From Thermoleophilia bacterium (lineage in GTDB: Bacteria > Actinomycetota > Thermoleophilia > Solirubrobacterales > 70-9): a stretch of 64,000 bases of DNA. Positions within the stretch are counted from its first letter, which is position 1, and each line of letters opens with the position of its first letter. Both the position numbers and the translations under genes were made by a program. The stretch spans positions 1 to 64,000 of the forward strand of contig JAENWT010000008.1 in NCBI GenBank assembly GCA_016650125.1. The letters run 5' to 3'. This document shows, in pieces, positions 13,669 to 28,468 of the stretch. The notes beneath the pieces were generated by a model. The model searched no databases, was not told the DNA's origin, and worked only from the letters and a program-made list of their open reading frames with translations.

Positions 13669-13716
13669 TTGACACGCGCCTGACGTTTGTGTATAAACTG
13701 AACTATATGGTTCAGT
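13669..13716 (+). promoter_or_regulatory. Near-leaderless promoter with operator centred on the ArsR start codon
   Basis: TTGACA (13669-13674), a 17-nt spacer and TATAAA (13692-13697) form a strong promoter. The expected start of transcription is about 3 nt before the ATG at 13707. ACTGAACTATATGGTTCAGT (13697-13716) is a 20-bp palindrome with one mismatch whose centre lies exactly before the ATG. ArsR repressors bind such palindromes, so autoregulation is likely. Confidence 0.7.
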
Positions 13717-14048
13717 ATCCTAAAGTCGATCGAACGTTTGCGGCGCTTTCCGACCCGACCCGGCAGTTGATCCTCAACCGCCTGGGCGAAGGCAGCGCCA
13801 CGATCAGCGAACTGGCCGAGCCGGCCGGCATGTCACTCACCGGCCTGAAGAAGCACGTGGCCATTCTCGAGGACGCCCGCCTGGTGACGACCGAAAAGAT
13901 CGGCCGGACCCGGCACTGCCACCTCGACGCGGAGGGCTTCGACGAAGCCGCCTTCTGGATCGAGGAGTTCCGCCGCCAGTGGGCGGACCGGTTCGATCGG
14001 CTCGACGACATCATCGAAAGAAAGCAGAAGGAGAAGGAGACAAAATGA
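13707..14048 (+). CDS. ArsR-family regulator (module 1)
   Basis: A 113-residue winged-helix protein: FAALSDPTRQLILNRLGEGS, SELAEPAGMSLTGLKKHVAIL (recognition helix) and TTEKIGRTRHCHLD (wing). It lacks the metal-binding Cys of ArsR/SmtB sensors and belongs to the group paired with SRPBCC proteins. The ATG lies inside a palindromic operator. It overlaps the AHSA1-like gene by ATGA, so the two are translationally coupled. A second module of the same design is at 26.7 kb. Confidence 0.85.
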   Translation: MVQYPKVDRTFAALSDPTRQLILNRLGEGSATISELAEPAGMSLTGLKKHVAILEDARLVTTEKIGRTRHCHLDAEGFDEAAFWIEEFRRQWADRFDRLDDIIERKQKEKETK

Positions 14049-14551
14049 ACGAGCAGACCCAGAGAAACGAAACAAAGGTGACCACCCCGAGCGATCTCGA
14101 GATCAGGATCGAGCGGGAGTTCGAAGCCCCGCGCGAGCTGGTCTGGGAGTGCTTCGCCGACCCCGAGCTGCTGATCGAATGGCTCGGTCCGCGCCGGCTG
14201 AAGATGAGGGTCGAGCAGTATGACTTCCGCGAGGGCGGTGAGTGGAAGTACATCCACTCCGACGACGAAGGCAACGAATATGTCTTCTTCGGCGAGTTCC
14301 GGGAGCTCCGCGAGCCGGAACTCATGGAACAGACCTTCACCTTCGTCATGGATCCGCCGCTCCCGCCGCAGATCGACCGCTGCGAATTCATCTTGCTCGA
14401 GGGCGGCCGAACCCGGCTGGTCACGACCTCGACCTTCCAGGTGAAAGAAGGGCGCGACGGAATGCTCCAGTCCGGCATGGAGGGCGGCGTCAGCGAAGGC
14501 AACGAGCGGCTCGACGAGCTGCTCGCCCGAAAGCTGGCCGGCGCCGAGTAG
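14045..14551 (+). CDS. SRPBCC (AHSA1-like) protein, module 1
   Basis: A 168-residue START-like protein: LEIRIEREFEAPRELVWECFADPELLIEWLGP at the N-terminus is the standard AHSA1 opening, and the C-terminus (MLQSGMEGGVSEGNERLDELL) is the long helix that closes the hydrophobic cavity. The ligand is unknown. ArsR-AHSA1 pairs are common in actinobacteria; the ArsR partner probably controls this gene from the shared promoter. Confidence 0.85.
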   Translation: MNEQTQRNETKVTTPSDLEIRIEREFEAPRELVWECFADPELLIEWLGPRRLKMRVEQYDFREGGEWKYIHSDDEGNEYVFFGEFRELREPELMEQTFTFVMDPPLPPQIDRCEFILLEGGRTRLVTTSTFQVKEGRDGMLQSGMEGGVSEGNERLDELLARKLAGAE

Positions 14552-23572: not shown

Positions 23573-26287
23573 TCACTCCGGGAGATTTTCGGTTGGACCG
23601 CGATATTCGACCAAACCTTCGGTGATCCTGCGGTTCAGTTCGTAGAGATGTTGGTTTACGGACGGGTGGTCCCCGACTTCCAGGTCGTTCCAGCCATATG
23701 CAGCCAGGACTGCTTCGTCGAGCTGAGCATGAAGGGTGGACAGGTCGTCCCATGCTCCGTCTTCGATCTGGTTATACAGATCGGTAAGCCCCATGTTGCC
23801 TTGGACGCAAATCTCTTGGCGACGCTCGATAACGGCCTGTCCGTGGTCGCCGATCAAATCGGCCTGAGCTTGACTGACCCTTGGCCACGGGAAGGTTTCG
23901 AAAGCGGAACTTGGCGTATATCGAATGCGGTCTTCTAGCGTTGAGGAACGGGCTTTCGCCCAATGCGTGTGAATCGAAGAAGTGAGAATGGCCATGGCGT
24001 AGCTCGAGTCGAAAGCAAAGACATTGGTGCTGTCGCTCGGCCGCCAATTCGAATCGCACCAAGTGAACAAAATCCATTTGCTAACTCGAGTGCCAGCAAT
24101 GAAACGGTCAAGTTCGCCAAGCTTCTCCCTGAAGTCGGGTCGGGGCCAGAGGAATTGCCACCAGCGAGGGTTGCGGTGGTACGAGGGACTGTTCTCGCGA
24201 GCCTCTCGTGCTTGGGCACGAATGACCTCTATGGCGGCCGGGTAGGCCATGGCGGCTTCGAGCGTCATCTGAGCGAAATCAATGGTGTATCGAGTGGGTT
24301 GTTGCCCAACGTTCCTGGCAATGTCTCGACCGTCCATATACGGGAGTACCACTCGCGAATAGTCGCAGTCGTCTCGCTGTAGAAGTTCCCGGGCCTCTTC
24401 GACTTCAATGTCGTAGTGAGCTCCCGGCAAGAAGCCTTGAAAAGCTATGTGCCTGTTGAGAGGAAGCCGCGGGACATCAGCAACCGGAATAGTCGATTCA
24501 CGGAGAGCAGTATCGATCCCTTCAACTTCGGCTTCATCTAGTAGTCGAGCGGGAACAAATGCGACCGGTCCCTTGATCCAGTTGACGATGCTCACGTCTA
24601 CGTTCGCGGCTCCGGGCCAATCCTGGGTGCTGACTGCATCGGTGATTATTCCGTCGTTCTCGACGATGTAATTCAGGCTGGCGCCACGCGCACGGTTCTG
24701 GCTGATCGAGTTGGTTCCTACGAGCCCGGCGCGTTGTCCCGGAGCGAGTTGATCGTGCGCCTTTCGGAACCAGTAAACGCAGTGGTCTTTGAGCCCGCAT
24801 CCGAACTCTTCTGAAAGCCACTCCACGTAAGCATCACCAAGCAGGCTCCGGAGGTTTCTATCTCCATGGAACGGAGGGTTGCCGACAATCACGCTGGCCT
24901 GCGGCCACTCGACTCGTAAGGCATCTCCCGTCCTGATCTCGCTCAGGTTCTCGAGGGGAAGTGTGGATTCGGCCAGGTTCAGCTCATCGACGACCAACTT
25001 GTGCCCCATCCAGAGAGTGACCCTGGCCAGTGCGACCGCAAAGGCGTTTATCTCGATGCCTTTGATGTTATGAAGTGGGAAAAAGCCGCTCAGGGCTTCG
25101 GGGTCCGGCATGCCAGCGGCCTGTCGTAGTTCCCTCTCGCGCTCCCTCAGGCGGCGTTCAATTTGCCGGAGTTCCCGGTAGGCAATGTAAAGAAAGTTGC
25201 CGGACCCACAAGCCGGGTCGAGAACGGTGAAGTTGAGAAGCTCGTCCTGAAGTGATTGAGCCTGGGCGACGGTTTCTGCGCCTTCGATTTTCGCAAGCCA
25301 TGGAGTCACGATGCTCGGGCCAATCACCTTCATGATGTCGGCTGAATGCGTGTAGTGCGCTCCGAGAGTCCACTGCGCCTCTTCCCCCAAAGCCCCCTCT
25401 AGGAGGGATCCGAAAATGTGTGGCTCAACTCGTTTCCAGTCGAATTCGCAGGCGGCTCGCAGTTCAGCCAGTTCTTCCGAGTCGAGGTGAACCTCGGAGG
25501 GCTCTGCGAAAAGCCCCCCGTTCACGTATCGGGTTTCGGCATAGAACCCCGCTTCAGGACGAGCTCCCTCAGTATTCAGCCAGCGGAACAAGCCGCCAAG
25601 ATCGTCAGCGCTGGAGCGCTGCGGATTTGCGAGAAGGTCATCGACGATCCGTGTAAAGAGTTGACGCTCGAGTTGCCCTAGATCTTCGGCGAACATGCAC
25701 CAGACGCACTGAAGGACAAAGTCCCGCAGAACGTCAGGATCTGCTGCCCGTCGCTCGCGCAGGCCGGCATAGAGATCGGTTACATGTGCCACAGCTTCAC
25801 GCGTCACTGCTTCTTGAGAGGTGAGGAAGACTGGTTCTCTCCCCGCTAGGAAGAGAAGTGAGTCAGAGCGGTCAAGCAAATCCGATATGTCGAAAGTTGC
25901 CAGTGGTTCGTTCGGGAACGCCCCTGGCTCCCATATTTCGAATCGGGTAAAAGCACAAAGTACGAGCCAACGAGGTGCCGGCAGGTTTCGCGCCGGGTCC
26001 GCTGCATCTCGCCAGTATCCGAATGCTTGAGGTCGGTGCTGGTCGAGTCGATGAGCCTCGCTGGGACGCTTCATCTCGATAATGCAGACGCGATCCCAGA
26101 TCAAGTCCAGGAATCTGCCGTGCTGGGCGTCTTCAAATCTGGCTACAGCTTGCCGGTCAGTACCAAAGCAAGTGAACAGGTCATTCAGGAAGGTCTGAGC
26201 CTCGGCTCGCTCGGATCCGGCGTAGTCACTCCATCGCTGCTGAAAATCACTGAGGCGCTGGCGAATCTCTTCGCCGGTAATCGGCAT
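23573..26287 (-). CDS. MmeI-like single-chain restriction endonuclease-methyltransferase (Type IIL/IIG)
   Basis: A 904-residue enzyme. Residues 61-73 hold the nuclease motif D-x9-E-M-K (Asp61, Glu71, Lys73), with the same spacing as in MmeI. Residues 357-365 are the SAM motif DPACGSGNF and 470-473 are NPPF, an N6-adenine methyltransferase motif. The last ~300 residues (from about PFHG to the end) hold the target-recognition and C-terminal helical parts. One protein therefore cuts and methylates, with specificity set by its single TRD. A small charged helical protein lies 6 nt upstream in the same operon. Base composition is lower in G+C than that of flanking core genes. Confidence 0.88.
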   Translation of the reverse strand: MPITGEEIRQRLSDFQQRWSDYAGSERAEAQTFLNDLFTCFGTDRQAVARFEDAQHGRFLDLIWDRVCIIEMKRPSEAHRLDQHRPQAFGYWRDAADPARNLPAPRWLVLCAFTRFEIWEPGAFPNEPLATFDISDLLDRSDSLLFLAGREPVFLTSQEAVTREAVAHVTDLYAGLRERRAADPDVLRDFVLQCVWCMFAEDLGQLERQLFTRIVDDLLANPQRSSADDLGGLFRWLNTEGARPEAGFYAETRYVNGGLFAEPSEVHLDSEELAELRAACEFDWKRVEPHIFGSLLEGALGEEAQWTLGAHYTHSADIMKVIGPSIVTPWLAKIEGAETVAQAQSLQDELLNFTVLDPACGSGNFLYIAYRELRQIERRLRERERELRQAAGMPDPEALSGFFPLHNIKGIEINAFAVALARVTLWMGHKLVVDELNLAESTLPLENLSEIRTGDALRVEWPQASVIVGNPPFHGDRNLRSLLGDAYVEWLSEEFGCGLKDHCVYWFRKAHDQLAPGQRAGLVGTNSISQNRARGASLNYIVENDGIITDAVSTQDWPGAANVDVSIVNWIKGPVAFVPARLLDEAEVEGIDTALRESTIPVADVPRLPLNRHIAFQGFLPGAHYDIEVEEARELLQRDDCDYSRVVLPYMDGRDIARNVGQQPTRYTIDFAQMTLEAAMAYPAAIEVIRAQAREARENSPSYHRNPRWWQFLWPRPDFREKLGELDRFIAGTRVSKWILFTWCDSNWRPSDSTNVFAFDSSYAMAILTSSIHTHWAKARSSTLEDRIRYTPSSAFETFPWPRVSQAQADLIGDHGQAVIERRQEICVQGNMGLTDLYNQIEDGAWDDLSTLHAQLDEAVLAAYGWNDLEVGDHPSVNQHLYELNRRITEGLVEYRGPTENLPE

Positions 26288-26518: not shown

Positions 26519-26662
26519 GAACGGAAGGCTAGACCGTGGGTCGGACAACGTTTTCGTTCAAAGGCGCGATTTGGGAGAACTTTTCAGGACTCGTGAGCAT
26601 TCGTAGACGGCTTTGATCATCGCTGCCATCATGGCGATCGGCCGCGCCTACAATTGTGACCT

Positions 26663-26719
26663 TCAACCAATTGGTTGACAATTCGAAATCGATCGTCTAT
26701 GTTCAACCACATGGTTGAA
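26663..26719 (+). promoter_or_regulatory. Leaderless promoter with two operators for ArsR module 2
   Basis: TCAACCAATTGGTTGA (26663-26678, perfect palindrome) overlaps the -35 box TTGACA (26675-26680). After a 17-nt spacer comes TATGTT (26698-26703). TTCAACCACATGGTTGAA (26702-26719) is the second operator, centred exactly before ATG 26711. Both share TCAACCA-N2-TGGTTGA, and their centres are 40 bp apart. The predicted transcription start lies at or next to the ATG. Confidence 0.75.
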
Positions 26720-27064
26720 GAAACTGAAGAGGTCGATCAGATTTTCCACGCGCTTTCGAACAGCACCCGTCGGGGCATGCTTCGCCGCCTGTCACGGAGC
26801 GCCTGCACGGTGGGCGAGCTGGCCGAGCCGGCCGAGATGTCGTTCGCGGCCGCTTCCAAGCATGTCCAGGTGCTGGAAAGGGCCGGAATGGTCAACCGAA
26901 GAGTGAAGGGCCGGCAGCACATCTGCACCCTCTCGCCGAAACCCCTCAAAGAAGCAAGTGAGTGGCTGAGTTTCTACGAGAAGTTCTGGGACGAGAGTCT
27001 GGATCGCCTCCAGGCGATGCTCGAGTCCGATCGTGACGCGGCGGCTCGCAAGGAGAACAAATGA
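26711..27064 (+). CDS. ArsR-family regulator (module 2)
   Basis: A 117-residue winged-helix protein: IFHALSNSTRRGMLRRLSRSA, VGELAEPAEMSFAAASKHVQVLERAGMV with the recognition helix, and NRRVKGRQHICTLS as the wing. No metal-binding Cys pair. The ATG at 26711 lies in an operator; ATG 26699 (MFNH extension) is also in frame. It overlaps the next gene by ATGA. It is a paralogue of the 13.7-kb module with the same operator position. Confidence 0.88.
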   Translation: MVEETEEVDQIFHALSNSTRRGMLRRLSRSACTVGELAEPAEMSFAAASKHVQVLERAGMVNRRVKGRQHICTLSPKPLKEASEWLSFYEKFWDESLDRLQAMLESDRDAAARKENK

Positions 27065-27558
27065 ATCAAGTTTCAGAAGACACCGACACGGACGCAGTGC
27101 GAATCGTCCGCGAGATGGCCGCCCCGGCAAAAGACGTCTACGACGCTTTCCTCAACCCCGACCAGCTGATGCGCTGGATGGGTCCGAAGCGGTTCAAAGC
27201 GACCGACGTCGAGATCGTTCCCGAAGTGGGAGGCAGCGCCCGGATCACGGTCGAGGCCGAGAACGGCGACCGGGGTTCCTTCGACTGGAAGTTCGTCGAG
27301 CTGGTCCCGGACGAGAAGATCGTCATCAGTTTTGCCTTCGGCGGTCCGAACGGCGAAACCGACACCCACCGCTCCCGCTTCACCGTGAGCCTGGTGGAAA
27401 ACGCACCTGACAGGACCGAGCTGACTCTCGTCCACGACCGGCTCGGTCAGGCACCTCCCGGCGGCCACGCCGGCGTCAACCAGGGCTGGACCGAAGCTAC
27501 GGCCAAGCTCGCCCAAATGTTCGAAGCAGACAAAGGAACTCATGAATCAGACGACTGA
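27061..27558 (+). CDS. SRPBCC (AHSA1-like) protein, module 2
   Basis: A 165-residue START-like protein: VREMAAPAKDVYDAFLNPDQLMRWMGPKRF opening, a beta-rich middle, and LTLVHDRLGQAPPGGHAGVN leading to the C-terminal helix. It is coupled to the ArsR gene by a 4-nt overlap. Directly after it lies the C-terminal relic of a further paralogue, so the array once had at least three genes. Ligand unknown. Confidence 0.85.
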   Translation: MNQVSEDTDTDAVRIVREMAAPAKDVYDAFLNPDQLMRWMGPKRFKATDVEIVPEVGGSARITVEAENGDRGSFDWKFVELVPDEKIVISFAFGGPNGETDTHRSRFTVSLVENAPDRTELTLVHDRLGQAPPGGHAGVNQGWTEATAKLAQMFEADKGTHESDD

Positions 27559-27719
27559 CGCTCGAGTTCCGTGAAGACGGATCCGACTCGACCGAGCTGA
27601 TCCTAGTTCACGACCACCTCGGAGCCGCCCACCCGGTCACCAACGTCAACAGGGGCTGGACAGCGGTCACGGACCGTCTTGTCAAATACCTCGAAGAAAC
27701 TGAAGGAGAAGCACGATGA
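27555..27719 (+). pseudogene. Relic of a third AHSA1-like gene
   Basis: The frame encodes TELILVHDHLG, then NVNRGWTAVTDRLVKYLEE and a stop at 27717-27719. It matches the last third of the upstream gene (TELTLVHDRLG, NQGWTEATAKL). An ATG at 27542 (MNQTTD) that looks like the old start is in a different frame and meets a TGA within 11 codons. The gene lost its first two thirds by deletion. Its stop still overlaps the DUF899 start by ATGA. Confidence 0.75.
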
Positions 27720-28468
27720 ACACACCACCGACCGTCTCACCGCAGGAATGGGAAGCCGCTCGCGCCGAGCTGCTGATCAAGGAAAAGGAACTCACCCGCG
27801 CCCGCGACGCCATGGCCGCCGAGCGGCGCCGGATGCCACGGATGGAAGTTGAGAAGGACTACAAGTTCGAAGGCCCGGACGGGCCGGTGAGCCTCCTCGA
27901 CCTGTTCGACGGGCGCCGCCAGCTGATCGTCTACCGCTTCTTCTTCGACCCGGACGTGACCGGCTATCCCGACGCCGGCTGCCCGGGCTGTTCGATGGGC
28001 GCCGACCAGCAGGCCAATCCCCTCCACCTGAACGCCCGGGACACCTCGCTCGCGTACGTGTCGAAGGCACCGCAGGAGAACATCGAGCGCCTGAAGGCGA
28101 AGATGGGCTGGGAGCTCATCCCCTGGTACACCCTGACCGACGACTTCGACGTCGATCACGGAGTAGGGGAGTGGCACGGCACCAACGCCTTCATCCGAGA
28201 CGACGAAGACCGGATCTTCCGCACCTACTTCCTCGACGCCCGCGGCGACGAGGCGATGGGCAGCACCTGGACCTACCTCGACATCACCGCACTGGGACGG
28301 CAGGAGAAGTGGGAAGACTCACCCGAGGGCTACCCGCAGACCCCGCCCTACGGATGGTGGCGCCGCCACAACGAATACGACTTCGAAGCGGCCGAAAAGG
28401 AAATGGCCGACCAGATCGAGCGCCATGACAAGGCCCACGCGGCGGCGAATGGGGGAGGCAACCCATGA
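27716..28468 (+). CDS. DUF899 thioredoxin-like protein
   Basis: A 250-residue DUF899 protein: VSPQEWEAARAELLIKEKEL, then RRMPRMEVEKDYKFEGPDGP, DLFDGRRQLIVYRFFFDP, and the Cys motif GCPGCS in the position of a thioredoxin active site, then GWWRRHNEYD near the end. The fold is thioredoxin-like, and the biochemical role is not established. The gene overlaps the AHSA1 relic upstream and a 41-residue ORF downstream, both by ATGA. Confidence 0.85.
   Translation: MNTPPTVSPQEWEAARAELLIKEKELTRARDAMAAERRRMPRMEVEKDYKFEGPDGPVSLLDLFDGRRQLIVYRFFFDPDVTGYPDAGCPGCSMGADQQANPLHLNARDTSLAYVSKAPQENIERLKAKMGWELIPWYTLTDDFDVDHGVGEWHGTNAFIRDDEDRIFRTYFLDARGDEAMGSTWTYLDITALGRQEKWEDSPEGYPQTPPYGWWRRHNEYDFEAAEKEMADQIERHDKAHAAANGGGNP

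Follow-up and report, generated by a model that had tools for sequence, protein, structure and literature searches.

Rv2034 of Mycobacterium tuberculosis is an ArsR repressor that is co-expressed with the polyketide_cyc2 gene Rv2035 and acts as an autorepressor (PMC3338718). Its footprint contains the palindrome CCGTAAGT-N4-ACTTACGG with a 4-nt spacer, and protection extends from -30 to +3 (PMC3338718). Another described member is NolR, a rhizobial ArsR protein whose DNA-bound structure shows that the base-specific contacts are made mostly from the recognition helix (PMC8960804). The locus in this work is located in a stretch of 64,000 nucleotides (the window) from contig JAENWT010000008.1 of a Thermoleophilia bacterium, whose Solirubrobacterales-type metagenome-assembled genome of 2.83 Mb is denoted G000. 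It consists of a predicted ArsR-AHSA1-DUF899 operon (module 2) with two palindromes at its promoter, which we read as operators of a local autorepressor circuit. A second ArsR-AHSA1 pair (module 1) is located 13 kb upstream on the same strand. The features of both modules are shown in Table 1.

Module 2 is similar to the Rv2034 system in having an ArsR repressor with an SRPBCC-type partner and a palindrome with a 4-nt spacer, and the autorepression and the footprint reaching the start codon that are known for Rv2034 are predicted for module 2. The two systems differ in the half-site, which is ACTTAC(GG) for Rv2034 and GGTTGA for module 2. They also differ in that the Rv2034 palindrome lies just upstream of the start codon and not on it, and is a single site, whereas module 2 has two sites at 40 bp. 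A search for GTAAGT-N4-ACTTAC over 396 genomes of the phylum identified nine loci where the neighbouring genes include ArsR, and each of these ArsR genes carries the helix [ST]RPA[VI]SQH (RPAxSQH type). Operators of the footprinted Rv2034 type are associated with a single helix type in these genomes. NolR is similar to the module-2 relatives in that its contacting recognition helix is the part that varies among the relatives in this work. It differs in its motif, (A/T)TTAG-N9-A(T/A), and in being a global regulator of nodulation genes and not a local operon repressor. The module-2 ArsR also shares its fold with the SdpR-type autorepressors (NF033789) and the match spans the DNA-binding region, but the score of 47.8 bits is below the cut-off of 100, hence it is not a member by that model. 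The scores against NF033788 (69.8 bits, cut-off 55), HTH_20 (PF12840; 43.1 bits, cut-off 27), and HTH_5/arsR (PF01022; 31.2 bits, cut-off 22) are above their cut-offs.

Table 1. Features of modules 1 and 2 in the window.
Feature	Position	Strand	Remark
Module-1 operator CTGAACTATATGGTTCAG	13698..13715	+	centred on ATG 13707 (comparison)
Module-1 ArsR repressor	13707..14048	+	recognition helix SLTGLKKH (TGxK class)
Module-1 AHSA1 partner	14045..14551	+	PF08327
Module-2 upstream operator TCAACCAATTGGTTGA	26663..26678	+	overlaps -35 box; centre 40 bp upstream of that of the downstream operator
-35 hexamer TTGACA	26675..26680	+	conserved in orthologues
-10 hexamer TATGTT	26698..26703	+	ends 7 nt before ATG 26711, leaderless geometry
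Module-2 downstream operator TTCAACCACATGGTTGAA	26702..26719	+	perfect 7-4-7 palindrome, centred on start codon / predicted +1
Module-2 ArsR-family repressor, 117 amino acids	26711..27064	+	recognition helix SFAAASKH (AxxS class); PF12840 and PF01022 above gathering score
AHSA1/SRPBCC protein	27061..27558	+	PF08327, 77.3 bits; overlaps arsR stop codon
Remnant of second AHSA1 gene	27552..27719	+	C-terminal part only; tblastn 44% over 54 amino acids vs intact copy
DUF899 protein	27716..28468	+	third gene of predicted operon; PF05988

Both module-2 operators share the core TCAACC-N4-GGTTGA, and a whole-genome search found this core at these two sites only. The centre of TTCAACCACATGGTTGAA falls between 26710 and 26711, where the left half stops just 5' of ATG 26711 and this ATG opens the right half. 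An earlier reading of the DNA made from the letters alone (the sequence-only reading) had centred a palindrome immediately before this ATG, which is correct. It had also described a perfect palindrome with the same core that covers the -35 box. The distance of 40 bp stood, and the inner 16 bases (26663-26678) of the upstream site TTCAACCAATTGGTTGAC (26662-26679) form a perfect palindrome; the outermost pair (T/C) is mismatched, and the box is overlapped but not fully covered. Lone 7-4-7 palindromes are not rare in the window (11 observed vs 7.5 expected). The module-2 pair is the sole pair of matching-core palindromes that are at most 80 bp apart in the window, and 40 shuffled windows yielded one such pair in total. 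The exact pattern TCAACC-N2-ATGGTTGA had 36 matches in the 396 genomes compared to one match for the reversed pattern. Most of these matches are unrelated or lie in coding sequence, and a minority is located 5' of an ArsR gene, hence the pattern by itself is poorly suited to finding such operators.

The promoter TTGACA-17-TATGTT carries 10 of the 12 consensus bases. The mRNA is predicted to be leaderless with the downstream operator centred on +1, because a sigma-70-type start is expected at ATG 26711, 7 nt past the -10 box. If the mRNA is leaderless, this operator would span both +1 and the start codon. The +1 position would then be the A of ATG 26711, and the right half of the operator would double as codons 1-3 (Met-Val-Glu). 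In the proposed circuit, an ArsR dimer would read the GGTTGA half-sites by inserting the recognition helix SFAAASKH. Two dimers would bind 40 bp apart, one over the -35 box and the downstream one over +1, and would thereby exclude RNA polymerase from the operon until a signal frees the promoter by releasing the repressor. We assign a probability of roughly 0.85 to the reading that the two palindromes are operators of a local autorepressor circuit of a leaderless ArsR-AHSA1-DUF899 operon. An inverted repeat over a start codon could in principle hide that codon, and the palindromes might instead be RNA hairpins that affect mRNA stability or translation. A transcript from the predicted start at 26711, however, would contain no more than the right half of the downstream palindrome and would lack the upstream palindrome altogether. 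The letters of the sites also vary with the DNA-reading helix of the protein, as described below, which a hairpin does not need. The hairpin explanation is thus extremely improbable.

Both operators and their 40-bp spacing are retained in five same-genus orthologues and in an orthologue from another family (L011). The alignment of seven orthologous promoters exhibits conserved operators, -35 box, and -10 region, and a variable spacer and upstream DNA. In L011, the outermost pair of the downstream operator changed from T/A to C/G and the palindrome was retained.

The recognition helix was compared with the best of nine half-site motifs at -120 to +40 in a first set of 220 non-identical ArsR domains and their upstream DNA, which were obtained from approximately 250 loci. 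The helix classes and motifs were defined on this first set, hence the prediction was fixed before the second set was fetched; helices beyond the named classes were left unclassified. The second set consists mainly of Alphaproteobacteria and is largely held-out, as the genomes of three of its loci (L180, L182, and L183) were already represented in the first set. In the first set, the TGxK class goes with GGTTCA (36/36), AxxS with GGTTGA (15/16), AAxQ with GGTTGT (11/11), PSFM with GGCTAA (6/6), and the RTAx class of Bacillota with GGTGTC (45/59). Among the 29 PAxS members, GGTTAA is present in 16 cases and in five more at two mismatches, and about a third of the PAxS relatives have no site. 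Reversed sequence as a control gave almost no motif matches. The same pairings were found in the second set for AxxS (10/11), TGxK (2/2), and PAxS, where GGTTAA is present in 11 of the 14 members having any site (of 26). The reversed control of the second set gave no motif for AxxS or TGxK. When both sets are pooled (approximately 300 ArsR relatives), GGTTCA is found in 38 of the 38 TGxK members and GGTTGA in 25 of the 27 AxxS members. The recognition helix appears to predict the half-site letters in ArsR relatives, and this prediction held in the largely held-out set.

Shared ancestry limits how far helix and operator can be treated as statistically independent. In a test of independent pairs, 46 of the 48 rows fit, and just one pair is on well-supported branches, hence the test is underpowered. 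Covariation at the outer palindrome positions is weak with the exception of PAxS. The Bacteroidota relatives with RQGV helices have no site among the nine motifs scanned, and a scan of viral contigs found no relatives. The sites might also be bound by another regulator or by the paralogue of module 1 or of a third module (described below), which would be cross-regulation and not autoregulation. Some cross-binding is possible because the three paralogous half-sites (GGTTGA, GGTTCA, and GGTTAA) differ at one base. Each paralogue nevertheless carries the site of its helix class at its own start, and the helix classes are tied to their half-sites across phyla, which makes cross-regulation improbable as the explanation of the sites.

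ATG-centred palindromes were sought in relatives and found to be the rule in close classes. In the TGxK class, an in-frame ATG, GTG, or TTG lies at the operator centre in 36 of the 36 members, and a TAnnnT box begins 13 nt 5' of the palindrome centre in 31 of them. A count blind to the operator was also made where only starts located 7 nt after a TAnnnT box were taken. Residues 2-3 from these starts are VQ in 31 of the 32 TGxK proteins and VE in 16 of the 20 AxxS proteins. The third residue by class is Glu with AxxS, Gln with TGxK, and Lys or Asn with PAxS. The codon of Val 2 is GTT in 87 of the 88 start-centred operators compared to 4-11% of the Val codons elsewhere in the same genes; only genes with an operator match entered this count, a selection that affects PAxS and not TGxK, where every member matched. 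The QAxS relatives kept GGTTGA operators that are mostly off the start codon. This suggests that the operator tracks the transcription start, and that its coincidence with the ATG follows from leaderlessness. The operator-on-ATG design of the sequence-only reading is thus real as a centring, and the centring is probably a consequence of an operator on the transcription start of a predicted leaderless gene. We found no paper on a start-codon operator or a helix code in the open-licence literature. In the AAxQ-helix ArsR genes (L041, L042, L043, L023, L018, and L026), the start ATGGTTGTAG is located inside TACAACC-N4-GGTTGTA, and this overlap gives an N-terminal MVV stretch ahead of the domain.

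Two points weigh against the autorepressor circuit. Nocardia SdpR, an ArsR relative, has two footprinted sites in its own promoter and no effect on that promoter (PMC12185567), hence sites alone are no proof of autoregulation. A start at ATG 26699, which is in frame upstream of ATG 26711, would place the downstream palindrome within the coding region. The palindrome might then be a by-product of a conserved protein start (MFNHMVEE...) where the peptide FNHMVE is kept for the sake of the protein, and the translated FNHMVE is indeed identical in all five same-genus orthologues. However, ATG 26699 reads ATC or ACG in three of the six same-genus promoters, which makes it a weaker start candidate than ATG 26711 on this comparison. 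The identical core is also present 40 bp upstream in non-coding DNA, the second codon is almost invariably GTT, and the half-site tracks the recognition helix across classes. The coding explanation is very improbable against these observations.

Tandem spacing is specific to the helix class. The spacing is 39-41 bp in 17 of the 24 AxxS intervals, mostly 43-46 bp in QAxS, 33-36 bp in PSFM, and mostly 26 bp in RTAx, and the TGxK and AAxQ classes have single sites. In carrying a -35 operator, module 2 therefore conforms to its class. This operator had been taken for an addition of module 2, which does not agree with the usual 40-bp tandem operators of the AxxS class, Alphaproteobacteria included. 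The RTAx-helix ArsR genes of L198-L254 (mostly Bacillota) have GGTGTC palindrome pairs approximately 26 bp apart, unlike the actinobacterial classes.

The half-sites of modules 1 and 2 do differ as had been noted (GGTTCA and GGTTGA, respectively), and the module-1 core TGAACT-N4-GGTTCA (13699-13714) occurs once in the genome. Both modules are on one contig in the same-genus genomes G006, G009, G010, G011, and G015, 7-15 kb apart with order and orientation retained. The two modules had been presented as a pair, which is too few: a third paralogue in the genome (G000:C3) carries CTTAACAAAGTGGTTAAG, with the half-site GGTTAA, centred on its GTG start. At this paralogue (L002 1474-1497), ATACTTAACAAAGTGGTTAAGTAT lies on the GTG start and the ArsR gene is followed by a short protein gene beginning MSKYVLVYHGGG in place of AHSA1. 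A tree was constructed from 109 domains with the recognition-helix columns left out. The TGxK proteins including module 1 form one clade with 97% support in the Shimodaira-Hasegawa-like approximate likelihood ratio test (SH-aLRT), which is found across the taxonomic class. The module-2 protein is nearest to AxxS proteins from other orders and phyla, and many deeper forks are poorly supported. On this tree, the three paralogues are read as old subfamilies that share one genome. The proposal that the paralogues kept their geometry and diverged in specificity agrees with the start-centred palindromes and with half-sites that vary with the helix, by which specificity is predicted; they are not a recent pair.

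The AHSA1/SRPBCC gene is located directly 3' of arsR on the same strand in module 2, in all five same-genus orthologues, and in L011. The ArsR-AHSA1-DUF899 order recurs in the five same-genus orthologues, and DUF899 is retained more weakly in L011. The only cysteines of the module-2 ArsR are Cys32 and Cys72. The remnant of the second AHSA1 gene, of which the front part is missing, sits between the intact AHSA1 and DUF899 genes. A 904-amino-acid MmeI-like restriction-modification protein with MmeI N, helicase spacer, methyltransferase, and target-recognition domains is encoded at 23573-26287 (- strand) and is transcribed away from the arsR operon.

The findings in this work suggest, as the somewhat more probable case, that AHSA1-type ArsR proteins of several phyla follow a readable code in which the residues before K/Q-H set the half-site. 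With the operator fused to a leaderless start codon, a changed operator would then force a different third residue on the protein itself, and helix, operator, and N-terminus would evolve as a unit in one gene. N-terminal and helix residues of such proteins may thus correlate for reasons of DNA and not of contact in the fold, and the start codons of such genes are easily mis-annotated. If the code holds in binding, each gene would carry its own specificity readout, because the site adjoins or lies inside the gene whose product reads it. One-base operator changes (between GGTTGA, GGTTCA, and GGTTAA) would be directly testable through helix swaps, and the family would form a large natural series for comparing protein, operator, and start codon even where no target gene is known.
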